Position numbers and translations under genes: made by a program
The notes under the pieces: generated by a model
Told to the model about the DNA's origin: nothing
Databases searched by the model: none
What the model saw: only the letters and a program-made list of their open reading frames with translations
In this document: positions 3,727 to 38,313 of the stretch, in pieces
How positions within the stretch are numbered: the first letter of the stretch is position 1
Layout: each line of letters begins with the position of its first letter
Origin: a virus
Strand: one strand, 5' to 3'
Virus record (IMG/VR): IMGVR_UViG_3300024262_000006
Location: 1 to 41,916 of that record
Length of the DNA: 41,916 bases

Positions 3727-4671
3727 TTATCCTTTCTTTGGTGGGGTTGGTATTTTGTGATACTTCCAATGAGTATACCCCCCTATCTTAATTTCTTCAT
3801 CTAAATCCATTAGGACGTATTTCTTCTTAACGTGAGCGATTTCAGCTATTAACTCAACCCTGCTAGACTTTCCTAAGTATATTTCTGAAATCCGATACCA
3901 TTTGTCACCTTCCCTTAGTTCTGGCTCAGGCAGCCTCTCATTCACATCCACCCACCCCTCACTGGTTTGGTCTGATTCGTTTAATATTTCACCTTGATAT
4001 TTACCACATCTAACACACTGATTTCCTGTAGGCTCTATTTCATGATCGCAATCCTCACTGGTTTGGTCACGGAGCCATTTAGTTAGTTCCTTTGCAATAT
4101 CTTTCGATGTTGAATAACCAGTATCGTAATTCTCACAAAACCAATTTGCAAACTCCTCAATCGCTTCATCACTTATCTTCCCTTTATTCCCCTCAAATAC
4201 CTCCATCATGCCATCGAAGAACTTCTGACTGCATTCGGGTTTGTCACAATTATTCGTTATATCTGTGACAGATTTGGGTTGAGCAGTCTGTTGATCTCTG
4301 GCCCATTTAGCACCAATTTCTTTTAGTTCATAAAATGGTATGTTTGCAAAATCCCCAAGTTCTTCAGTATAGCTTAATCTATGTTGGTAGTTTACTTTAA
4401 CAAAGTCACCAAGATCATTACTTACCTCCCCTGCTTCATCTGTCAAGTATTTTAGTTCTTTTACTTGACTTTGTGGTTGGCGGGTGTTAACTGCTTCTTC
4501 AATAATTTTCAAGTACAATTCATTAGCTTCATTACGCAATGTTTGCCAATCAATATATACAGTATGCAATTCATCATTATCAACTTTACTGATTAGGTCT
4601 GTCAATATTTGCTCTTTGTCTTTTAAGGATTTGACAATATCCTCATGCTTTAGTTGTTCTTGTTGTTTCAT
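3727..4671 (-). CDS. Multi-part protein with C-terminal DUF551-like domain
   Basis: A 314 aa protein. The N-terminal 60 residues are a charged helix (MKQQEQLKHEDIVKSLKDKEQ). A possible metal-binding knuckle CDHEIEPTGNQCVRC lies near residues 208-222. The C-terminal 75 residues match the DUF551 pattern of phage proteins: GWVDVNERLPEPE at its start and THWKYHKIPTPPKKG at its end. Function of DUF551 is unknown. The gene starts inside the stop of the upstream gene (ATGA), and both begin MKQQE, suggesting a small local duplication of the start region. Confidence 0.65.
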   Translation of the reverse strand: MKQQEQLKHEDIVKSLKDKEQILTDLISKVDNDELHTVYIDWQTLRNEANELYLKIIEEAVNTRQPQSQVKELKYLTDEAGEVSNDLGDFVKVNYQHRLSYTEELGDFANIPFYELKEIGAKWARDQQTAQPKSVTDITNNCDKPECSQKFFDGMMEVFEGNKGKISDEAIEEFANWFCENYDTGYSTSKDIAKELTKWLRDQTSEDCDHEIEPTGNQCVRCGKYQGEILNESDQTSEGWVDVNERLPEPELREGDKWYRISEIYLGKSSRVELIAEIAHVKKKYVLMDLDEEIKIGGYTHWKYHKIPTPPKKG

Positions 4672-4967
4672 TGCTTCTTCTTTAAGTACACTAAAAAATG
4701 ACTTCCCGTATCAACTCCTTCAATGCCATATATTTCCATCAATAAGTCTCCAAATTCAGCAATAATTTGTTTACAGATATTAGAATATTGCCTTTCTTCT
4801 TCACTATATGTCATTTTCACAAGATTTACCCTGCGACATTTTACAGACCAATAGGTATCATGATCATAAACTTTTTCCTCCCATTGATCGGGGATGATTC
4901 CAGTCAGGAACTTCTTGTTAGTTAAGTGTCCTAATGTTACTGCTCCTATTCTTTCTTGTTGTTTCAT
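4668..4967 (-). CDS. Hypothetical protein, 99 aa
   Basis: MKQQERIGAVTLGHLTNKKFLTG..., with an acidic helical C-terminal half (IIAEFGDLLMEIYGIEG) ending LVYLKKKQ. No family recognised. It is coupled to the DUF551-like gene by a 4 bp ATGA overlap, and the two share the same first five residues and nearly the same first 17 bases. Confidence 0.6.
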   Translation of the reverse strand: MKQQERIGAVTLGHLTNKKFLTGIIPDQWEEKVYDHDTYWSVKCRRVNLVKMTYSEEERQYSNICKQIIAEFGDLLMEIYGIEGVDTGSHFLVYLKKKQ

Positions 4968-6808: not shown

Positions 6809-7262
6809 ATTGACCAACATACCTTATGATTTCCAAATGCAAGCTCTTATCGTAATACGGGTTCATTTCACCCTTTAGTTCAGTCAAGTAACCCATGCAA
6901 CTACGAAGTGACACACCTAATAAATCCTCGGTCTTGATCTCCTGTTTTGGGTTTTCATTAGCTGGCTCATTGTTGATTTGCAACTGATACTCAAACAAAC
7001 CATTGCTTGAATCCCCTACCCTTCGTTTCTCAACCGTATGCCCTCCAAACCTTGGTTTTCTCAAGTGCCTTAACTGTGCTGAAATACTTGCTTGTGGTGC
7101 TCTTGTTTCTTCCTGTATCTGTGATAAGGTTCTAAACTTACCATCTTTCATACAGTTGTAAATCTTTCGTATTTGACCCGTTAACCTTTTTTGGTCAAAT
7201 GCTGGAACATAGCTTGAACCGTCAAACCTTAATCCCTGTGAAGAAAATAAATCCTTTTTCAT
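6798..7262 (-). CDS. Winged-helix DNA-binding protein
   Basis: A 154 aa protein. Residues about 28-85 form a winged helix: KIYNCMKDGKFRTLSQIQEETRAP (first helices), QASISAQLRHLRKPRFGG (recognition helix) and VEKRRVGDSSNGLFEYQL (wing). This matches a family of small phage proteins with a MarR/ArsR-like fold. The C-terminal helices (LLGVSLRSCMGYLTELKGEMNP) are not recognised. It overlaps the NinB-like gene by 4 bp, so it is part of the recombination operon, perhaps as a local regulator. Confidence 0.65.
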   Translation of the reverse strand: MKKDLFSSQGLRFDGSSYVPAFDQKRLTGQIRKIYNCMKDGKFRTLSQIQEETRAPQASISAQLRHLRKPRFGGHTVEKRRVGDSSNGLFEYQLQINNEPANENPKQEIKTEDLLGVSLRSCMGYLTELKGEMNPYYDKSLHLEIIRYVGQYGI

Positions 7263-7663
7263 CTTTCATTGTTTATGATTATACCTAAATTCTCTGCCGT
7301 GAACTGAATACACCAATCAATAAAATTTGACATCGTAGGCATATCCAACTCGCTGACTTCTTTTATTCTTATACTTGTTCTTCCCTCCTGTGTAACTTTG
7401 TGTTCATGTAACAAAGGGCACCCATGCCTCATTCTATCCTCTGCCTCTCTGATTGAAATATGCTCTCCCAATTCCATGAACCCTGCAACTACTTTTGGCA
7501 AAATTCCTTTATAGAAAAATCCCTTTTGGTTGAAACTTTGATCTTTCCCGATTGCCTCAATATCCATAACCAAGCGAGTGCCGTTCTTCAACGTGGAAAT
7601 CCATTGCTTGAAACTGGTACTCGTTACCACTTTACCGTCTATTATTTGTGCGGTGAATTGCAT
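7259..7663 (-). CDS. NinB-like recombination protein
   Basis: A 134 aa protein. It resembles NinB (lambda Orf), a mediator that binds single-stranded DNA and SSB and assists recombination: a short beta segment, then a helical core (NQKGFFYKGILPKVVAGFMELG), a basic region and a final helix pair (LDMPTMSNFIDWCIQFTAENLG). Sequence identity to lambda Orf is too low to judge by eye, so the call rests on layout and company: RuvC-like resolvase, YqaJ exonuclease and OB-fold protein lie just upstream. Overlaps the upstream gene by 32 bp. Confidence 0.5.
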   Translation of the reverse strand: MQFTAQIIDGKVVTSTSFKQWISTLKNGTRLVMDIEAIGKDQSFNQKGFFYKGILPKVVAGFMELGEHISIREAEDRMRHGCPLLHEHKVTQEGRTSIRIKEVSELDMPTMSNFIDWCIQFTAENLGIIINNER

Positions 7664-12349: not shown

Positions 12350-12853
12350 CTACTTTGCCTGAAAGTAACCAACTGCCGTTTTCAGCAAGAAGAACACGAC
12401 ACCAAATAGTGCCGCCTCTGTATCATCATCCAATTTTTTAAAGTTGACATACTTGTCAGCGATTGGCTCCAACATACCGACACCCTCTGCATAATCCCCT
12501 GCAAGGATTTTTCCGACTGCCTCTTGAGTGACCACACAAACACTATCAGGAATCATCGGGTTGCCTTCTTTGTCTTTCCAACGTTCAACGGCATTGACAC
12601 CTAACGTCAAGCCTCCTTTAATCAATGGGCCATCGACTACCTCGCCGAACCCTTTTAATTCAATAGCGGAATCTGCCTTTTCAGCAATCTCGCTAATCTG
12701 GTCAACTGTAATTAATTTCATTCTTTCTGTATTTTTTTTTGTGAATAAATCTGAAATCCATTTCCCTATTCTCCATGCTCCCGTGATCGTGGCCCAGTGT
12801 GTAACCAGTATGCCAAACAAGTTAGAAAAAAATGCTGTGATAGCTGCAATCAT
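12350..12853 (-). CDS. Putative membrane-associated protein of the lysis cassette, 167 aa
   Basis: MIAAITAFFSNLFGILVTHWATITGAWRIG is an amphipathic or membrane N-terminus. The middle is soluble and acidic (ISEIAEKADSAIELKGFGEVV). The end (EAALFGVVFFLLKTAVGYFQAK) is again hydrophobic. No family recognised. It overlaps the endolysin gene by 4 bp and is the last gene before the terminator, so it probably acts at lysis or at the envelope, possibly as an antiholin or a spanin-like factor. Confidence 0.5.
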   Translation of the reverse strand: MIAAITAFFSNLFGILVTHWATITGAWRIGKWISDLFTKKNTERMKLITVDQISEIAEKADSAIELKGFGEVVDGPLIKGGLTLGVNAVERWKDKEGNPMIPDSVCVVTQEAVGKILAGDYAEGVGMLEPIADKYVNFKKLDDDTEAALFGVVFFLLKTAVGYFQAK

Positions 12854-13230
12854 TTTGGGTCGTATTCTGCATGAATGTGAGTATCATGGATAACAATGTC
12901 ATACTTTCTGCCAAGTTTCTTTTTTAGCTTATTTCCTAAATCCATTTTTTGATTCATGGACAGGTACCGAGTTCTGAAATCAACCGCATCAATCCAATAT
13001 CCTGTTCTTCCGGCATTAGTTCGGTATTTCCCATAATGCAATGAATTCTTAGAATGAATACCATCACCTAATGCCGTTACCGTACCTTGTTCAAGTCCTT
13101 CCTCCCTGATTAGTTCATCCCAAACAACGATAGCCAACTGAACCTCGTCACTTACTCCCTCTAATTTTCTGGATTGGCCATTAATCATTCGCAACCCTGA
13201 AAACATTACACCGTCTTTATACTTTGCCAT
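12850..13230 (-). CDS. Endolysin, M15-type peptidase (L-Ala-D-Glu or D-Ala-D-Ala)
   Basis: A 126 aa single-domain zinc peptidase. LGDGIHSKNSLHYGKYR (residues 54-70) has the SxHSxxSLHY-like motif with H59 and H65; WIDAVDFRTR holds the metal Asp (D81 or D84); THIHAEYDPK at the end holds the closing His (H118/H120). These phage enzymes cut peptide cross-links or stems in peptidoglycan. No signal peptide, so release depends on a holin; two membrane proteins lie directly upstream. Start ATG follows a TTAAGAGAA leader. Confidence 0.85.
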   Translation of the reverse strand: MAKYKDGVMFSGLRMINGQSRKLEGVSDEVQLAIVVWDELIREEGLEQGTVTALGDGIHSKNSLHYGKYRTNAGRTGYWIDAVDFRTRYLSMNQKMDLGNKLKKKLGRKYDIVIHDTHIHAEYDPK

Positions 13231-13504
13231 TTCTCTTAAATCTGTTTTTGAATATCTGGCTACCTAAATACCCTGCACCAATGCTTTCAGCGACGGACAT
13301 TTGCAAACCTGTGTTTGAGGCAATCGCCCCCAAAGCTACGATACATAAAAGGTTCATAATAAAGTTGGGTAAATTCTTACTGATAAATAAACCAAACGTA
13401 AAGGCATCCCCATGTTTCTTGATTGCCACGTCCCATTGATCGACAATGAAAATCAACCACCCTAAAAGGGCCAAAGGCAAATGAATCATTTCTGCCCAGT
13501 TCAT
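13217..13504 (-). CDS. Putative holin, 95 aa
   Basis: Two clear membrane segments: HLPLALLGWLIFIVDQW (residues about 8-24) and LPNFIMNLLCIVALGAIAS (45-63), then a weakly hydrophobic stretch and a basic tail (KNRFKRNGKV). Size, topology and the basic C-terminus fit a phage holin, and the gene overlaps the endolysin gene by 14 bp. Not a recognised holin family by eye. Confidence 0.65.
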   Translation of the reverse strand: MNWAEMIHLPLALLGWLIFIVDQWDVAIKKHGDAFTFGLFISKNLPNFIMNLLCIVALGAIASNTGLQMSVAESIGAGYLGSQIFKNRFKRNGKV

Positions 13505-13809
13505 TAGTCGCCCCCTCCCCTGTGGAAACTTCGTATCAATTCCTTGATGTCCTCTTTGGCTTGTTGTAAATCTTCCTTGGTTGACAGATTATGCCTAATG
13601 TAATCAATCTGTTTCGTGTTTTCCAAAATATGAGCATCTTGGTTTTTGTCGTTTTGTTGCAAGACCTTGATCTCACTTTTGTTTTCCTTGCTCACGTTTG
13701 AGTTTTCCCTTGGTAGGCTTATAAAACCCATTATCAAGGCTACTACAATAGGACTAAAAATAGCTAAACCAAAGGCTATTCTAATTTTTGTTTTTTCACT
13801 TTGTGCCAT
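13504..13809 (-). CDS. Single-pass membrane protein with coiled coil (holin or lysis accessory)
   Basis: 101 aa. After a charged N-terminus comes one membrane segment (IAFGLAIFSPIVVALIMGFIS, about residues 11-31) followed by a periplasmic coiled coil (ENKSEIKVLQQNDKNQDAHILENTKQIDYI and KEDLQQAKEDIKELI). The layout resembles haemolysin XhlA-like or Rz-like lysis factors. Overlaps the holin gene by 1 bp. Confidence 0.6.
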   Translation of the reverse strand: MAQSEKTKIRIAFGLAIFSPIVVALIMGFISLPRENSNVSKENKSEIKVLQQNDKNQDAHILENTKQIDYIRHNLSTKEDLQQAKEDIKELIRSFHRGGGD

Positions 13810-13848: not shown

Positions 13849-14283
13849 TTATTTTTTCTGATAAATAAATTCCCACCACAGATGCCATTTCGTTACCGAG
13901 CCAACGGTAAACCTTAACCCGTACCACTCGAACACCGTGCCGTCAGGGTCATAAAACGGGTACGCCCCCACCGTTGTAAGGGTCTTGGTCATGTTGTCCG
14001 TTAAACGAGCCGCAAGGCTGTCAGCTGGGTTCGGTTTTCCTAAAGCGTACCACTCCGCATCAGTCAACCCGTCATTGCAAACTACTAATTCAATCGTGCC
14101 GTCTGTGCCACCCTCCAAGGTGTCGCACTTGACATACCACGAAGCAAAATAGTCGGACGTGGATAAATGATACCAAACGATTGTATCGGACTCGGCTGTC
14201 AAGCTGTCAATGACAGGGTTCATACGTTGCCCAAACATCAAGATCGGTACGAAAACTAAGGCGATTAAAAGTATCTTTTTCAT
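13849..14283 (-). CDS. Secreted small beta protein with Sec signal peptide
   Basis: The frame opens at 14328, but ATG at 14283 gives a clean signal peptide: MKKILLIALVFVPILMFGQ, cut after FGQ as is usual in Bacteroidota. The mature 125 residues are beta-rich (SWYVKCDTLEGGTDGTIELVVCNDG, FEWYGLRFTVGSV) and end WEFIYQKK. The layout (signal peptide, one beta domain, basic KK end) is the same as in the protein at 29229-29684, so the two may be related. Located between the fibre genes and the lysis genes. Function unknown; surface or virion role inferred. Confidence 0.6.
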   Translation of the reverse strand: MKKILLIALVFVPILMFGQRMNPVIDSLTAESDTIVWYHLSTSDYFASWYVKCDTLEGGTDGTIELVVCNDGLTDAEWYALGKPNPADSLAARLTDNMTKTLTTVGAYPFYDPDGTVFEWYGLRFTVGSVTKWHLWWEFIYQKK

Positions 14284-14311
14284 ATCTCTATTATTTTGTC
14301 TTGTTCTTCTA

Positions 14312-16480
14312 TCATTTTGTTGAATCATAATGCAGTGTAACCCAATCAGCGATTGGCATTGAGATAACTGACTTATCGTAAACGTCTGGAGCTGATAAAT
14401 ACCCGTTAAAATACACCGCAGTTCCAGCGGCCCCTATTTGATCAACTGTCAAGTCATCTGTTACGGGTGAACCACTAATAGACATTGCTACCCCATCCTG
14501 ATACATGGTAACAGCCAAACCATCAAAGACAATAGCATAATGATGAAAGTCAGTATCATCGTCATTCAATGTTCCGGTTACCGCATCTGTATCTGTATCG
14601 GTTTCAAGTACAATAGTACCTGCATCGGTGAAATTAATGTATTTGTATGTTCCTGTTCCAGAATTACCTAATACGGTCATTGCTGTACCAGTGCTTGCTC
14701 TTGCAGCCCAAAAAGTAACGATTGAGTTGCTCGTGTTTATTACATGATCAGCTGATAATGTCAATAATGAAGTCGAACCATCAAACCAAAGAGCATTCGA
14801 CCATGAGTTTCGATACATCGTTGGCCCGTCAACCGTGTAAATCTCGTCATGATACCAGTCGTGCCATGCTGTGGGTTTTTGCCATACCGAAGGCAGTGAT
14901 AGGGTAGAGCCGCATTTGGTAATTAAGACGTTATCAAGCCGATAAGTCATTGCTCCATCTACTGAATTAATAACTATGCTTGTAGAAACCGCATTTGTAT
15001 TATCGTACTGAAAAGAATACCTAACCCAAGAGGTTGTTATGGTTTGATCGAAAACAAAGTCTGCTGTACCCTGAAAGCCAAATCTGATAGAATCGCCACC
15101 GCTTATTTTTTTAGCATAATAACTGACAATATATGATTGACCTTCCTCAAGTGCAATCGGAGTTTGCTTGAAAAAATTCGACCCAAATAGTCCGCTTCCA
15201 GTTGCAACTACTTCACAAACATTACTTCCTTCTGGTGCAGTACCATCGGCTACTGCCGTTGCCGTATGATTCCCATTGTGAGACCAACTTGATGGTGGTG
15301 AAGCTGTGCCAGCCTCAAAAGTACCATTAACAACGATATTCGTCACATTATCCGCCCCCTGATCAGCTTCGGGAAGAAGGAAAGTGTTGTTTGCTATCTT
15401 GGTGGACCAGTCTGCGATTGAGTCGGTGATGTCGTAGTTGAAAAGGTAGGCATCGTAAATTTTGCCATAAACTTCATCAGTCCCAGATGCCCAGACATTT
15501 CCTATTAATAAATCTGCTGTACCGTTCCATAATGATGATGGAATTGCACCCGTATCTATGCTACCTGATTTCTCAACACCGTCAACATAAACAGTTATAG
15601 TTGACGAACTATATGTAAACCCAACTACATGATCTACACCAGCCGTTATAACTACATCATCCGTAACCCATATACATCCTAGTGTTCCATCAGAAGGATC
15701 ACCTAAAGATATTTGCACTTTCCCAGTTGACAACACTTGAAGCCTATACTCTCGTTCATCACCTGTTGTTATGTACTTTGCTATAAGAGTCTGGTTTTCC
15801 GCTAAATCCGTATGATTCACCTTTACCAATGCCGCCATTGCCGTTGAATACTCAAACTGAGCATTATCCCCTAAATTAATCTCATCATCCGTACCATCAA
15901 AACTATAATACTTCGCCCCACCGCCTTTGTGATCGGGTGCTACTCGGACATTACTTGCGGTTACGGAATTGCCTGAAATACGCTCGTAGGTGGCTTGGTC
16001 GATTTGGCGGCAAGCCACATTATCAAGTTTTAAAGTTGTTGTACCTTTGGCTGTAAAAGTAAGGGTTTGAGTTGTGGTTGCCTTTAGTAAAACACTAAAT
16101 TTACCATTCGCACTGTATGTTGGGCTTTCAGCACCCGAACCAGCTTTAAAGGACAATCCACCAGCGCTATAATCACTAATTTCACCATAAATTTGATAGT
16201 AGTTACCAATTGTAAGTAATGATGTTTTGTAAAGAATATCTCCGTCAGCACTGGATGTGTAAACAGCTTTCCCTCCTGTTATTGTTATACTCGCATCTTT
16301 ACTCCACCAAGTATCTGAATCAAATCCTCCATTAGTAACTTCATCACTCCCACCCGTCAGGGCTGACTCGGCAAAACTTACATCGAGCTTTAAGCCTTTA
16401 GCCCCGTCGCTGAATTGCACTTGCGAGAATCCGCTAAATGCGAAAACCGCTAATATCGTAAATAGAATAAATCTTTTCAT
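14312..16480 (-). CDS. Secreted fibre-like lectin with alternating CBM-like and LamG-like domains
   Basis: 722 aa. Signal peptide MKRFILFTILAVFAFSGFSQ, cut after FSQ. Then residues about 45-160, a jelly-roll CBM-like domain (NGGFDSDTWW ... LKLDNVACRQ); 185-365, a LamG/concanavalin-like domain (YYSFDGTDDEINLGDNAQFEYS ... YDAYLFNYDI); 385-525, a second CBM-like domain (NIVVNGTFEAGTASPPSSW ... YRLDNVLITKCG); 555-715, a second LamG-like domain (LWFDGSTSLLTL ... VYDKSVISMPIADW). This looks like a tandem duplication of a sugar-binding pair. Its place after the baseplate genes suggests a receptor-binding fibre, yet it is built for export. It may bind capsule or other glycans. Confidence 0.75.
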   Translation of the reverse strand: MKRFILFTILAVFAFSGFSQVQFSDGAKGLKLDVSFAESALTGGSDEVTNGGFDSDTWWSKDASITITGGKAVYTSSADGDILYKTSLLTIGNYYQIYGEISDYSAGGLSFKAGSGAESPTYSANGKFSVLLKATTTQTLTFTAKGTTTLKLDNVACRQIDQATYERISGNSVTASNVRVAPDHKGGGAKYYSFDGTDDEINLGDNAQFEYSTAMAALVKVNHTDLAENQTLIAKYITTGDEREYRLQVLSTGKVQISLGDPSDGTLGCIWVTDDVVITAGVDHVVGFTYSSSTITVYVDGVEKSGSIDTGAIPSSLWNGTADLLIGNVWASGTDEVYGKIYDAYLFNYDITDSIADWSTKIANNTFLLPEADQGADNVTNIVVNGTFEAGTASPPSSWSHNGNHTATAVADGTAPEGSNVCEVVATGSGLFGSNFFKQTPIALEEGQSYIVSYYAKKISGGDSIRFGFQGTADFVFDQTITTSWVRYSFQYDNTNAVSTSIVINSVDGAMTYRLDNVLITKCGSTLSLPSVWQKPTAWHDWYHDEIYTVDGPTMYRNSWSNALWFDGSTSLLTLSADHVINTSNSIVTFWAARASTGTAMTVLGNSGTGTYKYINFTDAGTIVLETDTDTDAVTGTLNDDDTDFHHYAIVFDGLAVTMYQDGVAMSISGSPVTDDLTVDQIGAAGTAVYFNGYLSAPDVYDKSVISMPIADWVTLHYDSTK

Positions 16481-16484
16481 AGTA

Positions 16485-16874
16485 TTATCCTTTCAAAATT
16501 TCTAATTTCTCTGTCGCCTCTGCAATAGTCTTTTCAAGTTCAGCGATCTTTTGTGCCTTGATTTCTTCTTCAGTAGGCTTAATATATTCAGGGTGAAAAG
16601 CCCTGTGGTCTCTGAAAGTAACACCAAATAGTTCTTTAGCTTCATTCCAAGAATAAGTACGGTTTTTTGCTAAACGATCATGTGGTGACAAATCCCCTTG
16701 GATTGTTTCAATGATATTACCATCCATGTCCTGAATTACCGTATCAGTATGCTTAACATATTCGTATAAATCCACCTTAACAACGGTTTTGTCAAAGTCA
16801 ATGTTTTTGATAAGAGCAACAAGAGCCGTTTTTTCTAAGGCTTCAATTTCTATATTCGCTTTTTTTAGTATCAT
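16485..16874 (-). CDS. Putative fibre assembly or accessory protein, 129 aa
   Basis: MILKKANIEIEALEKTALVALIKNIDFDKT... is a mixed domain; the last 35 residues (EEIKAQKIAELEKTIAEATEKLEIL) are a coiled coil. No signal peptide, unlike the genes on both sides. Small coiled-coil proteins between fibre genes often serve as fibre chaperones or joints, which is an inference from position here. Confidence 0.45.
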   Translation of the reverse strand: MILKKANIEIEALEKTALVALIKNIDFDKTVVKVDLYEYVKHTDTVIQDMDGNIIETIQGDLSPHDRLAKNRTYSWNEAKELFGVTFRDHRAFHPEYIKPTEEEIKAQKIAELEKTIAEATEKLEILKG

Positions 16875-16886
16875 CGTATATCGTAT

Positions 16887-17837
16887 TTAATTTTTTATTT
16901 TCTTCATAATTACCCTGACATTAATAGAGGCTGTACCCCAACCCCCACCAGTGTCTTGTATGAATAAATTCGTGGCAGAAGTTAAGCTATTAACAAAAAC
17001 AACATCAACAGAAGTAAACCCTGAAGCTGATACCGCTTGAGAGGCAATTATATCTGTACCTCCGGCAGTTGTGCCTAATTTAATTGTTACCGTACCTCCG
17101 TTAGTTTCCTCAATTAAGACATACTCAATCATATAGCCTTTGGGTAAATCCTCAAGCTGTGAGTCTCCTGTTATTGTCTCCGTGAGCATATTTTCATCAT
17201 CTACCCAAACAGCTTTCAAGCCTACCCATTCAGAACCTGAAACGGCCACTCCCGTACCATCGTTTTCCGCTCGTATATCAATCATCTTTGTTGGCCCTAC
17301 ATAAGCCATTGCCCCGACAAGATCACCATGCGAACCGTCTGCGGTTAAGTCAACGTCAAGGAAAGTTCCATAGGTATCAGGCTCGTAATCAAAGGCCGAA
17401 ATACTCAAACCAGTTCCTAACTTAATTTTGTTATCTGCACCCAAAGAGAACACATTCTGCGTAGCCCCGTCCGAGTCGTAATACTTTTGCCAACCTCCAT
17501 AAGACAGATAGATTGAATCTAAGGCAATCTGTCCTATATTAAATGTGCTAGCTGAAAGGACATTAAACGAAGCTGTATCGCCCGTCAATGTACCGTAGTT
17601 GTTAATATCACCCGTTACCGTAAGGCCCGGTGTCTTTAGCCAAGGATTGACGAATATTGAATCCCCACTCAAAGTCAGGTAGTAAACTGAACCTGATGAA
17701 CCAAAAAACAGCGTATCACCAATAGTGAATTCTGCAAAAAGGGTTTGAGTTGGTCGGGTGGCGATTCCAGATTGAGCAAAAATACCAGTACTCAACAGGC
17801 ACCCCGTGATTATCAAAATGATCTTTTTCATGGTCAT
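16887..17837 (-). CDS. Secreted fibre-like protein with C-terminal beta-sandwich
   Basis: The frame opens at 17876 inside the upstream gene, but the start is probably ATG at 17837 (or 17831), giving signal peptide MTMKKIILIITGCLLSTGIFAQ. About 316 aa. The middle is fibre-like and serine/threonine-rich (LTLSGDSIFVNPWLKTPGLT, VTGDINNYGTLTGDTASF). The last 85 residues (GYMIEYVLIEETNGGTVTIK, LGTTAGGTDII) form a domain also seen at the C-terminus of the baseplate protein at 19492-20667. Probable adhesin or fibre; exported. Confidence 0.65.
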   Translation of the reverse strand: MTMKKIILIITGCLLSTGIFAQSGIATRPTQTLFAEFTIGDTLFFGSSGSVYYLTLSGDSIFVNPWLKTPGLTVTGDINNYGTLTGDTASFNVLSASTFNIGQIALDSIYLSYGGWQKYYDSDGATQNVFSLGADNKIKLGTGLSISAFDYEPDTYGTFLDVDLTADGSHGDLVGAMAYVGPTKMIDIRAENDGTGVAVSGSEWVGLKAVWVDDENMLTETITGDSQLEDLPKGYMIEYVLIEETNGGTVTIKLGTTAGGTDIIASQAVSASGFTSVDVVFVNSLTSATNLFIQDTGGGWGTASINVRVIMKKIKN

Positions 17838-17860
17838 TTTTTCCAAAGTTACGAATCTAT

Positions 17861-19495
17861 TTAATTTTTTGAGCATAGTTCCTCCAATTTCTTAATTCTC
17901 TTGCGATTGTCTCTAATATAAAATACCATTACTAAACATACCAATGACAACACGATAAGGCCGTATTCCTTCATCTGTTCATCGGTCAAACCCAATGCGG
18001 CAGCCGCCGGAGTTGGAGACGGGGCTGTTGCTGCCGTCACTATACCGCCTTTAACCGTAATACTTGTAATATCTGAAGGGCCAAAATCAATCCCTGCCAC
18101 ACCGTTGTCAATAAATCCACCCGTTGCGGCAACTGTCCCTGTGGCCGAAACGCCAGAAGACGTAGTTGCTAATTTCTGACTTCCATTATAGTTGATAGTC
18201 GTGTAGTTGCTCCCACCGTTATACAAGCAACTGATATATGACTGTGAATCATCCGCATCACCAATATAAAGATTGCTTGAATTTGCGCCTATCTCTGTCG
18301 CTGTTCCATTATGCAACCACCAAGAATCTGAACCCGTACCTACATAAATCGGGGTATTATCTTGGAATCTGGTCGTTGCTCCGATACCAATGCTGTCCCC
18401 AGCATTATAGAATGTCATGTGATCAGTTCCGCCGCCTGAATTAATGATTCTTAATTTAGTGTTGTAAGTTATTATTCCTTGTGTTGAAGTTTGCCCTTCA
18501 ATCCACAATTCCCCAGCAAAATCAAATGCTGACAAACTTGCCACATCTATGTCTGTTCCATCATAAGTGAATTTCTCTGTGCCATCTACACTTGAAGCGT
18601 TATTCCAAAGCAACTCATTCACAGAACTCGCTCCCGTACCACCACCACCAGCAGGTGTCGCCCAAGTGCCGTCACCCCTCCAATAAGTTGTTCCACTTGC
18701 TGATGTTCCGCCATTTAGATTCCCAACAGGTAAATTTCCCGTTACATCCGTAGCTAAATCAATCGCTCCACGAGTAATGGTTTGCCCCGAAAGGGTAAGG
18801 TAATCCAATGACCCTGCCAACCCGACAGAATCGTGCATGGCGTATTCCGTTCCTGAAGAATTTAAGAACCTGAATCTATCTTGATAAGAGAAGAAAATTC
18901 CTGCACCATCAATAAAATCCGTTTGGTTTACATCATATAATACTATCGGCCTGAATGCCTCAACATACCCACCAAGGGTTCCGCTTGCTCCGTCTGCCGT
19001 ATCTGTTGCAGCAAGTATCTTGCTTCCATTCACAGACCAATCCCATGAATGCCGCATACCATAAGGACTGTCGCTCGTTACGTCAATATTATCATTGTGC
19101 ACCCCGTGGTCTGGTTCCAACCAAACATAAGCTACCTTCACGGGCAAAGCAAATACCATCTCTCCTGCCTCGTTAATTTTATAGACATTGATTACATTTC
19201 CATATCCGTCATAGGCTAGTCTCCATGTGTCATTGGCGAGCGTATCAACGGACGATTGAGTATTAATTGCATCAAGCAATGTCCTGTAATTAACTAGGTC
19301 TAAACTATCAACCGGGTCTGCCGCATTCTTAAACATGAACTGGTCAGTACTATCAGGGTGGTGAGCAATCAGCGTGTCCGATGAATTTGCCCACAACAAA
19401 CTATCGACTCTTAGGTATTCTATCTTGTCAATTTTTTGACCAAATGAATTAACTGCAAATAGAGTTATGGTTAGAAATATGATTAACTTTTTCAT
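17861..19495 (-). CDS. Secreted tail-fibre-like protein with C-terminal membrane anchor
   Basis: 544 aa. Signal peptide [20 protein letters not shown], cut after FGQ. The body is classical phage fibre sequence: [20 protein letters not shown] followed by [17 protein letters not shown] is a repeat-type motif found in many tail fibres. A Pro/Ala linker ([10 protein letters not shown]) leads to a membrane segment ([17 protein letters not shown], residues about 511-527) and a basic tail ([13 protein letters not shown]). With signal peptide outside and basic tail inside, it would be a type I inner-membrane protein. That is unlike an ordinary virion fibre. Overlaps both neighbours. Confidence 0.7.
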
Positions 19496-20667
19496 GGTAT
19501 GTCATTTAATTGGAATAACACCTTAATCCTTAACACAAAGCCAGCACCACCAGAGAACGTAAAATAGATTCTACTCGCGGCATCGAAATCATCCCTCATG
19601 TTTGGCTGGAATGCCGTTGGCCTTGACGCTGATTTAAAGATCGGGCCACTTGCTATCTCGGAGCCTAATGCCGTATAACCAATGTCCACGTTTACACTTG
19701 CTGGAACAGAAGTTGCAGCGTGTTGGATTAGTATATTGCTAACTAAATAACCATCCGGTTCTTCGATGTCAAAGTTAGCACTAACCGTATCTGATGAATA
19801 TTCTTTATGCCATTCCACGGTGTCGGTTGTGTCTTCAATTCCTAAATCATCTATATTAATTCCTATTGCATTTTTTTCCGTTAACTCCAACGAAAACTGA
19901 AACAAGGTACTGCCCCCGAAAGGCTCTGGCTCAATACTACTCTCCTTGATGTACTCCACAGCATTAACCATAAAGACATCTAAATTGCTGACGGCTATCA
20001 TTCGGTCAACCATGTAATCTGGAACAGGGCCAGTTTTTAATGTCGTGCCGCTGAAACTTCTTCCATTGATAATTGTTTTTGATTGCGACCCGTCTAAGAC
20101 CTCCGTTTCATCTTGAGGACTTGCATCTCTGTCTATCCCCTCAATGTAGAAAAACATATAATCACGATTCGCCCAATCAATAAAATAATCGTCCAGATCA
20201 GAATTTCCTCTGTCAAGGTTAGTGTATTTGACATATTTTATTCTTCCCTCGGTAATTAAATCCGATAGGTCAAGTATCTCAACGGGCTCACTCGTCAGCG
20301 TGTCGCCGTCCTGCTCAATCGTTAGAAAAATACAATTATCATTGTAGGCAGTCATATCTAAATCCCATGAATACCAATATCTCGTATCTATGCCCGTTAC
20401 CGTACTATCCAAGGTTCCTGCAATCGTGTCCAAAACAGTTGCAGAAAAATCCATGTCGTAAATCTTTAGACTGGGTACCGTTGCACTATCACTTATCACC
20501 TGCAAACGAATCGTATCACCATTGTTAAACTTTTGGGCATAATCCTTGACGGTAAACCCTCCGTGATACCTGTTTCTTTGTAGTGTATTCCATTTGTTTG
20601 GATAACTACCCGAAAGGTCTTTGAACATCACACTATTGACGATACTACTAGCTAACATATTTTTCAA
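19492..20667 (-). CDS. Baseplate or tail-tip protein, 391 aa
   Basis: Begins [20 protein letters not shown] without a signal peptide. Beta-rich throughout, with jelly-roll-like repeats ([26 protein letters not shown] and [10 protein letters not shown]). The C-terminal 85 residues ([31 protein letters not shown]) share pattern with the end of the secreted protein at 16887-17837. It lies directly after the large baseplate protein, and overlaps it by 20 bp. Likely part of the distal tail that carries or contacts fibres. Confidence 0.6.
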
Positions 20668-22807
20668 TTATGGTGATCAATGCCTTGTCCTCTCCGTTTT
20701 TCTTCTTCAAATTTACTAAATAACCACTAATCTCGGCAGTGAACTTGATTAAACCGAGTTGATTAGTTAATAAAGTAGTCAGATCATCCCACGTGAATTT
20801 CACTTCCACCGTGTGTTTTACAGGCAAATAAATAGGGTCCGACAAATCATCAACCAAGATGTCTTCGTTCTCCGTAATGCTATACCCCTCGCCCGTGGTT
20901 TCTAAAGTCTGTGCCTTGTCTGCTGTTTGGAAACGAATATAACTACTCAAATACTTCGTTAGAGCTGTTTTGATGCGATTTCCCTGCCTTACTAGGTTAC
21001 GGGTAGGCGTTATATACAAATTCAACGAACTGCTGCCAAACAGGCTTGAATCGTTGTCAATCGTTATGTTCTCATTCGTCTCCACATCCCAATCAATTGC
21101 AGGGTCGCTCGTGTTGGCCTGTGTCTTGATAACAAAATTGTGGTTATCACCCTTTAAATCTGTTGAGCCTGTCGTTGATAATGGACTTGCTACTTGGTCG
21201 CTGATGCCTTTCGTGTCTCCCCTGATCGTAGAAACATTATCCAACTTCACATCTGTATTCAGAATGCTCGTTCTTTTGTGTTTCGTATTGTACTCACCTC
21301 GCCCGTTGATAGACAAATATTCAAAGTTCTGATACCCTGTTTGAATATCCAACGGTGCTACCTCGGAAACAACTTCGCTTTCTATATCCAGCGTGGTTAT
21401 CCTATCCGAGATGTCTAACACCTCTGTATCGTCAAAAAAGTAATCGTAATTCTCAACTCTTATCCGTGTAAAGTCGTCTATCGTTTCTATTGTGTAGCCG
21501 ATATTCAACCATGATTTAACGCTCTGGAACCAATCATCAAAACTCAAACCTATCGGGGAGTCATCATCACTCAATGCCGCTCCACGAAGATGCAATCCGC
21601 TTAGAATACTAAAAAAACGTAATTGGTTTTCACTTGCATACATATCCCCGTTCAGGTTGTAGACAACATCTGTCCTACCAAGAAATTCAGAGTAAAAGGC
21701 ATATTGAACATCTAAGATATGCTGTGCCAATCTCTCCCCTGATTCATACAAAGGGAATGCCTCAACCTCTGTCGCTGGTGTGCTGATATTTGTTTCTTTG
21801 ATAACTAATTCCGTACTATCAATATCAATATCCATGCTCCCACCAATAGGATCCGTTTCCACGAAACCATAAATAGCAACAGAATTCCCATTCGCTAAGC
21901 TGATACTTTGACTGATCGTGATCGTTTTCTGCCCTGAATCCGTTGTGTCGTATGTTGCTAATGAAAATCGCTGAACCTTGGCATTTGATGTGTTGATCGT
22001 GTCTATCCTGATTTCTATCTGTGTGTTCGCTCCCGAACCAACCATGCTGTTTAATGTCAACACAATCTCACCCGTCAAGACTAAGGTACGAGCCTCCGTT
22101 GATTCTTTAAACAATGAGTAATCCCTGTCCAATGATGCAAGTTCCGTTAAGGCTACATCTTGAGGTTCAGTTAAAAAATCACTATCAATCAATGTCTGTT
22201 GGAGATAAAGAAACTTTATTGAGTTAGGAACGGCATTCGTATAATTCTGTGAAGTACTATTCGCCCATTCCGCTTTATCAACCGAGGTAATGGCTGGTAT
22301 CTGCAATGCTTTTTTCAGACTTGCATAAGGAACAATCGGGAACCCTCCTATGCTGGTCGTTTTCGTGATGTCAACATCTGTGTCTCGCCTATTGTCCAAC
22401 TTATCCAATGCCGAGGTATTGACCGCCTCAATGCTTACTCCCGTTGACATATTGCCAACCTTTACCCTTGGTTTGAATAGTTTGAAATTCAAGTTAAATG
22501 AACTGGGAAACTCAACATAGGTTCTTGTACTGGTTTTGAAGTAATATATCTTCAACGTACAAACAGCATTCATCCCGTTCTGCTCCCATAACCTAGTCAA
22601 CAAATCTGCTCCCTCTTTGATGAACGTCAAACTGGAAACACTAAACAGCGAAAACACACCACCTACCTCTAAATCTCTATTCATTTCCAGCATCCCCTCT
22701 TTCCATTCCAAAGGGTCATGCCGGAGATTAATATTATCAATCCCACTCTCCAACCGAAAACGGTAGGGCGCTGGCGTGTTGCTGACTAAATTAGTTAACC
22801 AACTCAT
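20648..22807 (-). CDS. Large distal tail/baseplate hub protein, 719 aa
   Basis: MSWLTNLVSNTPAPYRFRLES... follows the tape measure gene with a 17 bp overlap, the usual site of distal tail and hub proteins. The protein alternates beta-rich regions (EARTLVLTGEIVLTLNSMVG) with acidic linkers, and ends with a beta domain (HTVEVKFTWDDLTTLLTNQLG) plus basic [19 protein letters not shown]. No peptidase or lysozyme motif seen. Identification is by position and size. Confidence 0.65.
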   Translation of the reverse strand: MSWLTNLVSNTPAPYRFRLESGIDNINLRHDPLEWKEGMLEMNRDLEVGGVFSLFSVSSLTFIKEGADLLTRLWEQNGMNAVCTLKIYYFKTSTRTYVEFPSSFNLNFKLFKPRVKVGNMSTGVSIEAVNTSALDKLDNRRDTDVDITKTTSIGGFPIVPYASLKKALQIPAITSVDKAEWANSTSQNYTNAVPNSIKFLYLQQTLIDSDFLTEPQDVALTELASLDRDYSLFKESTEARTLVLTGEIVLTLNSMVGSGANTQIEIRIDTINTSNAKVQRFSLATYDTTDSGQKTITISQSISLANGNSVAIYGFVETDPIGGSMDIDIDSTELVIKETNISTPATEVEAFPLYESGERLAQHILDVQYAFYSEFLGRTDVVYNLNGDMYASENQLRFFSILSGLHLRGAALSDDDSPIGLSFDDWFQSVKSWLNIGYTIETIDDFTRIRVENYDYFFDDTEVLDISDRITTLDIESEVVSEVAPLDIQTGYQNFEYLSINGRGEYNTKHKRTSILNTDVKLDNVSTIRGDTKGISDQVASPLSTTGSTDLKGDNHNFVIKTQANTSDPAIDWDVETNENITIDNDSSLFGSSSLNLYITPTRNLVRQGNRIKTALTKYLSSYIRFQTADKAQTLETTGEGYSITENEDILVDDLSDPIYLPVKHTVEVKFTWDDLTTLLTNQLGLIKFTAEISGYLVNLKKKNGEDKALITIIEKYVS

Positions 22808-25538
22808 TCCTTCTGTACTTATTTAGAAGCCTTGTACGGGTGTTGTTTTTCGTGTAACCCCAAACATCGTTTTGGTAAATTGGTGTTGACATACCCTTTA
22901 TATCACCCCTCAATCCCCGTATCTCAGACAACAAACGATCATCGGTTGTGAATCCTCCGTGAGTTGTCTGGTTAATCATTTCCTCAGTCTTGGTATTTGG
23001 GAAAATACGAGCACCTTTATAGGTGGACCCTTTAAAGTATGTCGGGCGATCAACCATCATTGCCTCACCGCTTGGCAGAATCATTAACTCCCTGCCCCGT
23101 TCACCAGCGATAAACTCACTTGGCGCATTCTCCGTACCACCTCCAAACTGTGGTAATGGTTGTGAAAGAATAGCTGCGGTTTGTAAGGCACCAATGGTTG
23201 TTGCAAAAATAATACCGGGCAGGTTAGCTGGAAATGGTGCGCTTGCCGTTGCCTTTAGAATAGCCTGTGCCGTACTAATTGCAGCACTAAACAATGCCTG
23301 ATTTCTATCATTCTTTGCTATCCTTAATTGAATTTCCTTTTGTTTCTGCTCGTTCCCTTCCGCTAACTGCAATTCCTTTTGTAGGTTTCCTGAACGAATA
23401 GAAAATATTGCATCACCTACCTGTGTCGTTAATCCAAGTGCCGTGTCAAGCGACTCACGTAATTTTTCAACCCGCCGTTCTTCATTCTCTATCGCATTAT
23501 CAGTAACGAGATTATCCAACTCCTGACGAGCATCTGCTAATTGCTGTTCAATGTCCAGACGTTGTTCAGCACTTACATCCGTGACATCCAATAAGTCTTG
23601 CAGGCTATCAATCTGTTCCTCAATCAGTGTTTTTTGAATATCAAAGGTAGCCTGTGCAAGTTCTTCCTCCGTGGCAGCTGACATCATTGCAAGGTTAATC
23701 CTTGCGTCCGCCTCACGAGTTTTGTTCTCAATAATTAGGTTGGTTTCGTCAATGCTCGACTGTACCAGCAAGTCATTCATTTCCTTTTGCTCGTCATATA
23801 ACTGCTTCGCCTGCTCAATAGCCTCATCGTTTAGGTCTCGCTGAGCCTCTGCTAAATCCTGTATGACTATCCTTCTCTCCCGGACTACTTCCAATATCCT
23901 ACCTTCAATAATCTCACTTAATCCTAAATCCCGTATTTTTTGATTCAACAATTCAGCATCAGATGTAGCAACTAAGTCATTCAAATCAATTTGCTTGTCC
24001 GTGAATTGTTGCAAAGTTTCTAGTTGTTTCCCATACGAGGCATCAGCCAATGCCGTTGTATCGTCCAACAATTTTTGCCGGGCAGTCAATGTCTTTCTAT
24101 CGTCCTGCAGAATCCGCTCATTAATTGTTTTGACATTATCAAACCCGTCGATCAAAATATCTAAATCCCTCTCTAACCTGTCCTGTGTCAATTGTCGCCG
24201 CTCCTTCTCGTTTGCAAGCCTCGTCCTTGCCAGCTCTCCTTCTGCCGCCATGACCGCTGAAATAGCCTCCTGTTCCTGTTGCCTTAACTCTCTAGTTAAC
24301 CTACCTTGTCGCTCTGCTATGTTTACTTGACGGGTTAATATCTTCAATTCTTGCTGTGCTAAACGAAGTGATTCACCAGCACGAGCAGCCTCTAATGATC
24401 GTAAACTCTCAGCCGCATCCTCCCTCTCCTTGAATGAACGGGTTGCATCGTCTTGTACAACACTCAGTTTTTCAATCTCTGCCGTTAGTTTGGCTAGTGT
24501 AGCCGTGGACTTGATTGTCTGTTCCTCTAAATCAATCTCCATCTGCTCTAGATTTTTGCCCTCCTGGTAAGCATCCTTCATTGCTGAACCAAACCCCTGA
24601 ACTGCTTCTTTCCCTTGTTCAAATGCCTCTTTAAACTTCAACTGAACCAACTTAACAAGTGCGCCAGCTAGTTTAAAGGCTCTGCCTATAACCTCTTCAA
24701 ATACGTTCTTTATCCCGGCAAATACAGTCCGGAATTTATCAGCAGCCTCTTGGTTTCTTTTTAATGCTCCACGCAAAGTACCTAACCCGACAACGACAGC
24801 CGCTATGACGGCACCTAACGGAGTAGCAATAAATGCCAGCGCCGCACGAGTAGCACCTTTTATTCCACCAACAAAAGTGCCGAAGAACTTTTTTACCCCA
24901 CCTTCCTGTTGGCTAATCTCAATGAAATTATTGATTACACTCGTAGTCCCTCCTTGAAAGGCATTTGTACTCTCTAAGGCACTTTTGATACTGTCCTCGT
25001 AATTACCAATATTGATTTTAGTTTTCACATAGGCATCGGCCGACTCCTTAATTTTCTCATTATTGGAATCCAGCTCAGAGTTAATTTCCTGCAACCGCTT
25101 GGTCCCCTCTTTGGTTTCTAGATTGAGCGTTTCCTTCTCCTTTCGCAGTTCCTTATTCTTTTGACGTAGTTTTGCCAGCGTACCTATCTGCCCTTCTTCT
25201 TCTTTAATCTCACGTTTCAAAGCCGCTGTCCGTTCCTTGATTGCGTCCTTATTCCGGAGAATTACCTTAGTTCTTTCATCTTCAAGTTGTTTCAGCTTTT
25301 CATTCGTCGTAGTTAACTGCTTACCCACTTTGTCAACATCTTCATTACTCTGTTTGACCTTAATCTGAGCAGCGTTCAAATCCTTTAAGGTATTGGAATT
25401 ATTTTTTATAGACTCCGACAGATTCTCAATGTCTTGGTTGATCTTTATAATGCTATCGTCTAATTTGATAATAGCCTTATCAGTTACCAGAATACCTTTA
25501 ATCGCCTCTTTACTGACTATTTCTTTGATTTCTGCCAT
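22791..25538 (-). CDS. Tail tape measure protein, 915 aa
   Basis: The longest gene in the window. The first 190 residues and residues about 330-720 are long coiled coils rich in Glu, Lys, Gln and Arg. A hydrophobic block (ALAFIATPLGAVIAAVVVGLG, about 233-253) and a second one near 770-800 (FPANLPGIIFATTIGALQTA) are the membrane-like segments typical of tape measures. The C-terminus (EFIAGERGRELMILPSGEAM) is a common tape-measure ending. At about 0.15 nm per residue this predicts a tail near 137 nm, which supports a siphovirus with a long flexible tail. Confidence 0.9.
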   Translation of the reverse strand: MAEIKEIVSKEAIKGILVTDKAIIKLDDSIIKINQDIENLSESIKNNSNTLKDLNAAQIKVKQSNEDVDKVGKQLTTTNEKLKQLEDERTKVILRNKDAIKERTAALKREIKEEEGQIGTLAKLRQKNKELRKEKETLNLETKEGTKRLQEINSELDSNNEKIKESADAYVKTKINIGNYEDSIKSALESTNAFQGGTTSVINNFIEISQQEGGVKKFFGTFVGGIKGATRAALAFIATPLGAVIAAVVVGLGTLRGALKRNQEAADKFRTVFAGIKNVFEEVIGRAFKLAGALVKLVQLKFKEAFEQGKEAVQGFGSAMKDAYQEGKNLEQMEIDLEEQTIKSTATLAKLTAEIEKLSVVQDDATRSFKEREDAAESLRSLEAARAGESLRLAQQELKILTRQVNIAERQGRLTRELRQQEQEAISAVMAAEGELARTRLANEKERRQLTQDRLERDLDILIDGFDNVKTINERILQDDRKTLTARQKLLDDTTALADASYGKQLETLQQFTDKQIDLNDLVATSDAELLNQKIRDLGLSEIIEGRILEVVRERRIVIQDLAEAQRDLNDEAIEQAKQLYDEQKEMNDLLVQSSIDETNLIIENKTREADARINLAMMSAATEEELAQATFDIQKTLIEEQIDSLQDLLDVTDVSAEQRLDIEQQLADARQELDNLVTDNAIENEERRVEKLRESLDTALGLTTQVGDAIFSIRSGNLQKELQLAEGNEQKQKEIQLRIAKNDRNQALFSAAISTAQAILKATASAPFPANLPGIIFATTIGALQTAAILSQPLPQFGGGTENAPSEFIAGERGRELMILPSGEAMMVDRPTYFKGSTYKGARIFPNTKTEEMINQTTHGGFTTDDRLLSEIRGLRGDIKGMSTPIYQNDVWGYTKNNTRTRLLNKYRRNELVN

Positions 25539-29228: not shown

Positions 29229-29684
29229 TTATTTCTTTTTATACGCCCATGCACCTGTGTATTGAGTTGTATCGCTCGCCTCCCCTACCAAGGCAATGCG
29301 CCAATATTTGTAGGAAGGTTCATCAATCTCAACACCAAATCCCTCAGTCGTAGTTGCAGTCCAAGACGCTCCATTGTTTGCGATTTTCGTAGTGTCAGTC
29401 GCAAATAATCGAATACCATCATCATGGTGTGCCTCGCTGTATATGAAATATGTTGTTCCGTCTGTTGAAAACTTCAACAACCCTACTTCGTTAGTCGTGC
29501 CACCAATATTGGTTGCCTTCACGAAAGCGGTTGCCTTGACGTTTACATCAGTCAGTTCAAAGTCAAAATTTACCGTCTCTGCACCTTTTACAGTATCAGT
29601 GGTAAAGGCTCTGGATTTGCCATTCTGTGCCATTGCTCCAACGGCGATGAACAGCACACAAAGAATAAAAAATACTTTCTTCAT
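29229..29684 (-). CDS. Signal-peptide protein in the head operon, 151 aa
   Basis: MKKVFFILCVLFIAVGAMAQ is a textbook signal peptide, cut after MAQ. The mature part is one beta-sandwich (VKATNIGGTTNEVGLLKFST, YWRIALVGEASDTTQYTG), ending AYKKK. It stands 12 bp after the major capsid gene, where a decoration protein is usual, yet the protein should leave the cytoplasm. Its layout matches the small secreted protein at 13849-14283. Role unknown. Confidence 0.65.
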   Translation of the reverse strand: MKKVFFILCVLFIAVGAMAQNGKSRAFTTDTVKGAETVNFDFELTDVNVKATAFVKATNIGGTTNEVGLLKFSTDGTTYFIYSEAHHDDGIRLFATDTTKIANNGASWTATTTEGFGVEIDEPSYKYWRIALVGEASDTTQYTGAWAYKKK

Positions 29685-29695
29685 TTTTCTAAACT

Positions 29696-30724
29696 TTATG
29701 GTACTTGACCGATTGCATAAATCACTTCGTCGTTAGCATCACGATAAGAGCTCAATTCAGACTTGGTAAAACCTAAGTCAATTGAAGCCTCGAAATAATG
29801 TCTAACATCCTGTGTATATCCACCGACTGAACTGTCGTCCACACGGGCACTATAAGCATGAATTCCAATATTGAATCCAAGTTCTGGAACAGAAATTTGT
29901 CCATAATCACCAATTGCATCCTCTACCTTAGTAGGGTTCAATGGCTTACGGTTCTGCTTAGGAATCCAAGGAAGAACGGCAACTAAACCTGTTTCAAACA
30001 TCAACGCACTTCCATTATAAGCACTTCCAAGAATGCTCCGAGTCGTTGGCAGAATCTCCATGTTCCCAAATTGGAAACCATAGTTAGTTGCATTGGCACT
30101 ACCTTGTGCAGTTAGCCTTTCGGCTGAAGTTGCGGCATGGTCATCAGCGATAACCATCAACGGGCCATTGTAACGGTTGTACCGTAAACATTGACGTCCG
30201 TTCTGAAAGAAGTAATTAGCCTCTGCGGCTGGTACTTCATAAACATCATCCGTGGTGTTGAAGTTTCCTTTTCCACCTCCGGCTGAATAACCTGTCTTTG
30301 CAGCCACGGCGGCGGCAACGAACCAAGCATCTGCACGGTCAATGATGTTATAGATCGCATTCTGTAAACTTGAAGCATACATCTGTGCCCAAGTCAGAAC
30401 GTTATTGTCGGCCTGCTTTTTAGATATACTAAAAGGCTCCGATAGGGTTGTCCATGATACTGCGGTAGCTTGTGAATCCCCTTTTGCTCCTGTATGGTTA
30501 TGAGCCCTCGCCGTACCACCAATGGCGGCTTGACGAATAGGCATATACGCATTCACGGAACGGTCTTCACGAGTCCTCAGCTCATTTAAGGCTGGAGAGG
30601 CGATACCTGCCTTTTTGACCATGCGGATGGCCGCACTGTCAGGAAGTCGCCACTCACCTTTTTGAAACGCATCGTTGAAAACCGCTTGGCCTGCAACGAG
30701 TGCTGATGGTAAAAAATTAGCCAT
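29696..30724 (-). CDS. Major capsid protein, 342 aa
   Basis: Starts MANFLPSALVAGQAVFNDAF without a signal peptide and follows the scaffold gene by 14 bp. An E-loop-like segment (ARAHNHTGAKGDSQATAVSW), long helix (AQMYASSLQNAIYNIIDRADAWF) and C-terminal strands (LGFNIGIHAYSARV) fit an HK97-type capsid fold. Gene order portal, small gene, scaffold, capsid supports it. The exact family was not recognised. Confidence 0.8.
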   Translation of the reverse strand: MANFLPSALVAGQAVFNDAFQKGEWRLPDSAAIRMVKKAGIASPALNELRTREDRSVNAYMPIRQAAIGGTARAHNHTGAKGDSQATAVSWTTLSEPFSISKKQADNNVLTWAQMYASSLQNAIYNIIDRADAWFVAAAVAAKTGYSAGGGKGNFNTTDDVYEVPAAEANYFFQNGRQCLRYNRYNGPLMVIADDHAATSAERLTAQGSANATNYGFQFGNMEILPTTRSILGSAYNGSALMFETGLVAVLPWIPKQNRKPLNPTKVEDAIGDYGQISVPELGFNIGIHAYSARVDDSSVGGYTQDVRHYFEASIDLGFTKSELSSYRDANDEVIYAIGQVP

Positions 30725-34007: not shown

Positions 34008-34387
34008 TTATGGTGTTAGTTTGTGAAAATAATCTCCGAGTTCATCTACTTGGCAAAGCACATTATCTTTTTGGTTTTCATAAGACCAATTACAGCCGTT
34101 GATTATCTCGCCTAAGCAATTCAAATATATCTCTGTATCGTTGAAACCCTTTGAAGTTTGGCATACGCTAAAAATGCCTCGATACTATCCACAGCTAAAC
34201 TTGGTTCCCCTCCTGTGAAAGTTACCGCACCTATGTGTTCCACTTGATTCAGTAAACTGCACATGAACTTCATACTCATGTCCAGCTTTTCAGTTTCTCC
34301 CCTAAGGCAATGGTCGCATGACATATTGCATCGCCTCGTGACTTCTATCACTAAATTGCTTAGGTTAATTAATCCCTTATCCTTCAT
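34008..34387 (-). pseudogene. Radical SAM gene with internal deletion and frameshift
   Basis: The 5' part (34387-34121) encodes 88 aa with IEVTRRCNMSCDHCLRGE (the CX3CX2C iron-sulfur motif) and TFTGGEPS (SAM-binding). It then shifts into an early stop. In another frame the sequence continues as DTEIYLNCLGEIINGCNWSYENQ to TAA at 34008-34010, like the end of full-length phage radical SAM proteins. No ATG lies in that frame. So about 150 middle residues seem deleted and the ends are out of frame. The catalytic barrel would be incomplete. Confidence 0.65.
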
Positions 34388-37979: not shown

Positions 37980-38313
37980 CCGTTGTGTAGATTGCTGTAT
38001 TATTTTCTGATTCTTCTACCTCTACCTTAAAGCACCCATCTATCTGATTGCAAATCCAGTGAGCGATATTCTCTGCCGTAGGGTTAAACTCAAACAGGTC
38101 ATTCATGTTGCGGTGGTCTAACTTGCCGTGAACGATTCTCTTGATTTCAGCAAAATCTATCACCATGCCATTGTCGTTCAACTTCCTTGTTCTCACATAG
38201 ACCGTGATCTTCCAGTTATGACCATGGAGTCTTTGGCATGGACTTTCATAATCCAATGTCAAACTGTGGCTCCCTGCAACTTCTAATGTCTTTTTTGCTA
38301 TCCAATATTCCAT
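37969..38313 (-). CDS. queD: QueD, 6-carboxy-5,6,7,8-tetrahydropterin synthase
   Basis: 114 aa, full family length. Zinc ligands H16 (GSHSL), H30 and H32 (RLHGHN); catalytic Cys C26 (SPCQRLHG); GMVIDFAEIK; LDHRNMND with D66/H67; and VEVEESENN with E101. All key residues are present, so the enzyme should be active, turning dihydroneopterin triphosphate into carboxy-tetrahydropterin, the second step toward preQ0. No FolE, QueC or DpdA-like gene was found, so the product would feed the host pathway. Coupled to the QueE-ParB gene. Confidence 0.9.
   Translation of the reverse strand: MEYWIAKKTLEVAGSHSLTLDYESPCQRLHGHNWKITVYVRTRKLNDNGMVIDFAEIKRIVHGKLDHRNMNDLFEFNPTAENIAHWICNQIDGCFKVEVEESENNTAIYTTDES

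Follow-up and report, generated by a model that had tools for sequence, protein, structure and literature searches.

Predicted export signals on distal tail and capsid-adjacent proteins of a tailed phage related to those of Bacteroidota

Signal-bearing genes of the tail and capsid regions

In the window examined here, the whole 41.9-kb viral record IMGVR_UViG_3300024262_000006, the minus strand encodes the main set of genes, and several fibre-like proteins of the distal tail region begin with Sec/signal peptidase I signal peptides. The tail, capsid and lysis genes discussed below all lie on this strand. The predicted exported fibre genes sit after those for the tape measure protein (22791–25538, PHROG tail tape measure families) and a 719-amino acid (aa) tail hub or virion structural protein (20648–22807, phrog_15220; the hub role is suggested by its position), and before the lysis genes, as expected of tail fibres or tailspikes.

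Four distal-tail proteins (starts at 14283, 16480, approximately 17831/17837 and 19495) possess such signals with glutamine (Q) at position +1. The first is a 144-aa protein (13849–14283) with the signal peptide MKKILLIALVFVPILMFG, ending in ILMFG and followed by Q; it is a distant relative of the capsid-adjacent protein considered below. The second is a 722-aa adhesin-like protein (14312–16480; signal MKRFILFTILAVFAFSGFS, ending in SGFS, then Q) with Laminin_G_3 and CBM_4_9 domains and a sub-threshold match to GTA_spike_fiber. The third, a fibre-like protein of approximately 314–316 aa (16887–17837), has the signal MKKIILIITGCLLSTGIFA, ending in STGIFA and then Q, when read from 17831, with an in-frame ATG upstream at 17837. 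Its C-terminal domain weakly resembles that of a signal-less 391-aa distal tail protein (19492–20667), which is likely to be the adaptor between the hub and the exported fibres.

The fourth is a 544-aa fibre (17861–19495), the signal peptide of which is encoded at 19439–19495. As a preliminary description of this DNA had stated, it possesses fibre repeats, a C-terminal membrane segment (a hydrophobic stretch of 17 residues, 17915–17965) and a basic tail. That description had also counted the four proteins as consecutive. All four signals are present at the starts it gave, each with a small residue and then Q, but a signal-less gene for a 129-aa protein (16485–16874) separates two of the fibre genes. 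One might guess that its product is a cytoplasmic helper which keeps the fibres export-competent.

A fifth signal followed by Q (MKKVFFILCVLFIAVGAMA, ending in VGAMA) opens a predicted exported 151-aa small beta-sandwich protein (29229–29684) encoded directly after the capsid gene. The latter (29696–30724, phrog_7231) specifies a protein without a signal peptide which matches annotated major capsid proteins.

Each of these window proteins displays a positively charged n-region, a hydrophobic core and a small residue at −1, and glutamine is found at +1 in all five. Signals were called with a script that applies a simple signal-peptide rule rather than SignalP, its score being blind to the +1 residue. 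In strict form it detects four of the window proteins with signal and Q; the fifth, the 544-aa protein, was called by eye, having been missed because an Asn in its c-region breaks the strict rule. The number of such N-termini expected by chance was 0.010 or 0.037 per genome (residues 2–60 or 2–30 shuffled, respectively; 63 genes). In the window and related loci 75 signal-like non-lipoprotein open reading frames (ORFs) were considered; Q may occupy position +1 in 36 of them, E in two, D in one and K in one, compared with a Q background of 3%.

Most signal peptidase I substrates of Bacteroidetes expose Q, the so-called Q-rule [Bochtler 2018, PMC5837995; also PMC10653852]. The window proteins are like Q-rule substrates in signal-peptide shape and in the residue at +1; they differ in being products of phage tail and capsid-adjacent genes, comparable phage fibres being found in virions. 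We also considered cargo of the type IX secretion system, and rejected it as no C-terminal sorting domain of that system was detected with NCBIfam in 10 proteins.

Judged by its relatives, this phage very likely has a host in the phylum Bacteroidota, since its portal and capsid proteins match those of Bacteroides, Polaribacter and Flavobacterium phages, and relatives of its capsid protein are present in the genomes of Chitinophaga, Paraflavitalea, Flavobacterium and other Bacteroidota. One capsid match, 58% identical, occurs in a metagenome-assembled genome labelled Methylococcaceae, which is probably misbinned.

In related loci that have it, the capsid-adjacent gene separates the capsid gene from the conserved gene that comes next. 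Its product bears a signal in approximately 33 of 34 loci, other loci being without the gene, and signal and Q are retained down to about 20–29% identity. The orthologue in L088, clear from its alignment (hhalign E 2.5e-18), has no signal, its first residues being those of the mature domain. The 144-aa protein aligns to the same family over 74 columns which include the signal (hhalign E 2.5e-6). An AlphaFold model of the capsid-adjacent protein consists of a signal helix and a beta sandwich (predicted local distance difference test score, pLDDT, 73.6); it resembles other folds only weakly, the matches being chiefly small phage proteins that are uncharacterised. Based upon gene position and this model, it is probably a small capsid decoration protein. 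A Q-rule gene at this position was also noted in L089 (OP947161), which is named "Rhodobacteraceae phage", while its portal and capsid proteins are nearest to the Bacteroidota phage clade of the window; the host name may be wrong.

Fibres of related phages and Cellulophaga virions

A pattern search of viral contigs with the 719-aa hub gave no relatives. The DNA downstream of the hub gene was compared in 13 relatives, in which the hub is followed by one or two signal-less proteins and then by a large fibre. In 11 of the 13 this first large fibre after the signal-less adaptor carries a signal with Q; L172 and L180 have an ordinary signal-less fibre at that position. A survey of related phages for the same signals had been proposed in the preliminary description: they are kept both in these fibres and in the capsid-adjacent family, and the observation of signal-bearing fibres is larger than that description stated. 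There is good support for the fibre proteins of the window being built for export, namely the shape of their signal peptides, a +1 glutamine that is specific to Bacteroidota, and persistence among relatives.

Of the exported fibre proteins in the window, only the 544-aa protein shows sequence in common with known fibres. Its GDGTW repeat is common to approximately 80 fibre ORFs from many phages, most of them signal-less and some with a signal. The C-terminal segment of this protein was not seen in any relative examined, tblastn gave no match to it, and no virion-found fibre that we examined carries one like it. On these comparisons the segment is real but unique to the window phage.

As a separate observation, GDGTW-repeat fibres with signals, mostly with A before Q, were found in contigs of 35–67% G+C (L013, L030, L054, L055, L057, L061, L075 and L079). 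Signal-bearing GDGTW fibres may not be limited to Bacteroidota.

The GenBank records of Cellulophaga baltica phages flag those proteins which were detected in virions by tandem mass spectrometry (MS/MS). In phi19:1, phi10:1, phi39:1 and phi18:3, 13 flagged proteins possess signals (that of phi39:1 gp25 called by eye), and 12 of these have Q at +1, the remaining case being phi19:1 gp104 with K. All 13 are fibres, pectate-lyase tailspikes or their neighbours, encoded distally in the tail module. Among the other flagged virion proteins of these four phages, read from their annotated starts, none of 38 has a signal. In virions of phi19:1 and phi10:1, all of the large proteins detected that are distal to the hub bear a signal, and the signal-bearing proteins of these two phages must therefore include the receptor-binding proteins. 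The virion fibres of phi18:1 and phi46:1, which infect the same host species, are signal-less; possession of a signal is thus a property of the fibre module and not of the host.

The signal and the first 40–118 residues form a unit common to phages of different families, with 83–93% identity, the remainder of the protein being different. Thus gp94 of phi10:1 and gp87 of phi13:2 are 93% identical over 42 residues and no more, and gp93 of phi10:1 and gp86 of phi18:3 share 83% identity over 118 of about 780 residues. Tail fibres normally attach by their N-termini, where the virion anchor is usually located, and the signal therefore immediately precedes this anchor. Exchange of such a unit is as expected if the mature N-terminus serves to anchor the fibre to the virion.

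Assembly in two compartments and its alternatives

On balance, though with no great confidence, we favour the view that the signal-bearing proteins are surface parts of the virion which are exported, trimmed and then attached. The distal tail fibres and adhesins, and probably the capsid decoration protein, would be made with Sec/signal peptidase I signals suited to the host phylum. After export across the inner membrane they would be cut ahead of a glutamine and kept outside the cytoplasm, the exposed glutamine being cyclised by host glutaminyl cyclase. Cytoplasmic assembly of heads and tails would proceed as far as the hub and the 391-aa adaptor, which is signal-less. The exported parts would then bind to the virion, perhaps out of a periplasmic pool, and most simply upon lysis, as the contents of the two compartments mix. 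Export and presence in virions are well supported; for the window's own proteins we infer both, together with cleavage, periplasmic storage and attachment after export. Periplasmic assembly had been one of several options in the preliminary description, and it is the one favoured by the signal-bearing Cellulophaga fibres in virion proteomes. Only tentatively would we extend this to a class of tailed phages which assemble heads and tails in the cytoplasm and fibres and decoration protein in the periplasm, which join them only at lysis, and which exchange modules of signal plus anchor between families.

A possible trace of passage through the periplasm is found in the O-glycosylation motif, D-S/T-(A,I,L,V,M,T) being the site at which exported proteins are glycosylated in Bacteroidota [PMC8550257]. 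In the exported virion fibres of Cellulophaga phages (L160/L170, L159/L169, L164 and L168) the motif D[ST][AILVMT] is depleted, with 12 seen versus 35 expected (z −4.2); six control motifs were all within z ±1.5 and signal-less virion proteins gave z −1.2. This would fit selection against glycosylation while crossing the periplasm, and is a lead, not proof.

Several points weigh against assembly from exported parts. The motif depletion is a post hoc finding, drawn in part from homologous proteins; the clade of the window shows no such depletion (z +2.5 for the motif in relatives, and +2.0 for the reversed control motif). The virion MS/MS evidence comes from Cellulophaga phages and not from the window phage, the deposited annotations are silent on signal cleavage, and vesicles loaded with exported proteins are able to contaminate virion preparations. 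A membrane segment such as that of the 544-aa fibre is at odds with a free fibre of the virion. Lastly, fibres are without signals in B124-14, crAss001, P12002L, 11b, RAP44, phi18:1 and phi46:1, and with so many Bacteroidota phages of this kind export is evidently not needed in general.

O-glycosylation as the reason for export was set aside, and stands as no more than a lead. The exported set of the window clade is enriched in the motif (12.5 versus 3.1 per 1000 aa). However, a still higher density (20.5 per 1000) is found in the 391-aa tail protein, which has no signal, the signal-less L088 orthologue keeps its motifs, and the Cellulophaga exported fibres avoid them.

Under surface display and receptor masking, which the preliminary description had also raised, the exported proteins would remain attached to the host envelope or be free in the medium, masking receptors, blocking superinfection or binding neighbouring cells, and their presence in virion preparations would reflect contamination or a minor fraction. 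The signal peptides are clear, the 722-aa protein has carbohydrate-binding domains and the 544-aa protein a membrane anchor, and five Q-rule genes of unknown function in the "Nixviridae" phages of P. gingivalis have been read as possible outer-membrane modifiers [PMC10367356]. Yet phi10:1 and phi19:1 would then be left without a receptor-binding protein, relatives place ordinary signal-less fibres at the position of the exported one, and the capsid-adjacent protein has no obvious masking role. Given the signal-bearing Cellulophaga fibres in virions and these ordinary fibres of relatives, masking as the general function is now less likely than it had seemed, and we regard it as unlikely. The 544-aa protein may be an exception, and masking of the host surface is possible as an added role, above all for that protein.

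It is also improbable, though conceivable, that roles are mixed, with most exported proteins being virion parts and the 544-aa fibre having its function at the inner membrane, perhaps that of a fibre-collecting tether or an exclusion factor. Its signal, C-terminal segment and basic tail predict a topology with the N-terminus outside and the C-terminus inside, and such a segment is absent from the virion-found fibres examined; this is, however, a single case with no homologue found for the segment, which a recent fusion at the gene end could explain. That the fibres instead assemble in the cytoplasm, the uncleaved segment being an attachment or packing helix of the virion, is very doubtful: N-terminal attachment and the travelling of the signal with an N-terminal module would suit it, but the conserved small residue and Q, the host signal peptidase I pattern, would have no reason to be there, and orthologues without the segment exist.

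The signal-bearing fibres are like ordinary fibres and tailspikes of Caudoviricetes in their position after the hub, their fibre repeats and their carbohydrate-binding and pectate-lyase domains; the latter differ in being signal-less and assembled in the cytoplasm. A likeness is also found in the pIII and pVIII coat proteins of filamentous phages, which are virion proteins with cleaved signal peptides. Those phages are extruded through the membrane, whereas the window phage is tailed and its release is by lysis. A signal in the tail region is likewise borne by lambda Lom and by similar envelope genes of tail operons [PMC12309495], but Lom is a barrel of the host outer membrane and not a fibre. 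Phage targets of diversity-generating retroelements are without signals [PMC6199706]. The "Nixviridae" Q-rule genes are likewise phage-encoded, whereas here tail-fibre and capsid-adjacent genes are involved, with virion MS/MS evidence from other phages. In the open-access literature one paper on phage Q-rule proteins was found, and no description of tail fibres that are exported; these may be mentioned in papers under subscription, such as that of 2013 on Cellulophaga phages.

The assembly of tailed phages is taught as cytoplasmic, and some phages may finish their virions outside the cytoplasm. If so, progeny would be unarmed until lysis and fibres could be shared between co-infecting phages, while host export, signal peptidase and glutaminyl cyclase would become phage host factors. 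The annotation of signal-bearing phage genes, now often read as envelope modifiers, would be altered, as would the way in which tailspike enzymes of Bacteroidota phages are expressed. A direct test is possible, as there are Cellulophaga isolates for which annotation from virion MS/MS has been deposited.

Lysis and other genes

Four genes downstream of the fibres (12350–13809) probably constitute a lysis module, based upon their hydrophobic segments and position. PHROG matches to a HAD hydrolase and an Rz-like spanin were at noise level and were discarded. We also rejected a unimolecular spanin as an identity for the 544-aa protein, which has a C-terminal segment but a signal peptidase I site and no lipobox. 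Proteins with a lipobox-like N-terminus and a C-terminal membrane segment were noted near lysis genes in L173 (6017–6550) and L174 (reverse complement, 6811–7386), and the same spanin-like layout was seen in L177 (9278–9865) and L180 (reverse complement, 4244–4909). From this layout all four are likely unimolecular spanins.

At 40015–40725 the window encodes a protein resembling glycosyl hydrolase family 16, without a signal peptide. At 37239–38313 and 34121–34387 lie a QueD-like (PTPS) gene, a single ORF with a radical-SAM segment ahead of a ParB-like domain, and a further, short radical-SAM gene. The QueD-like and radical-SAM genes might possibly be involved in 7-deazaguanine modification of DNA.

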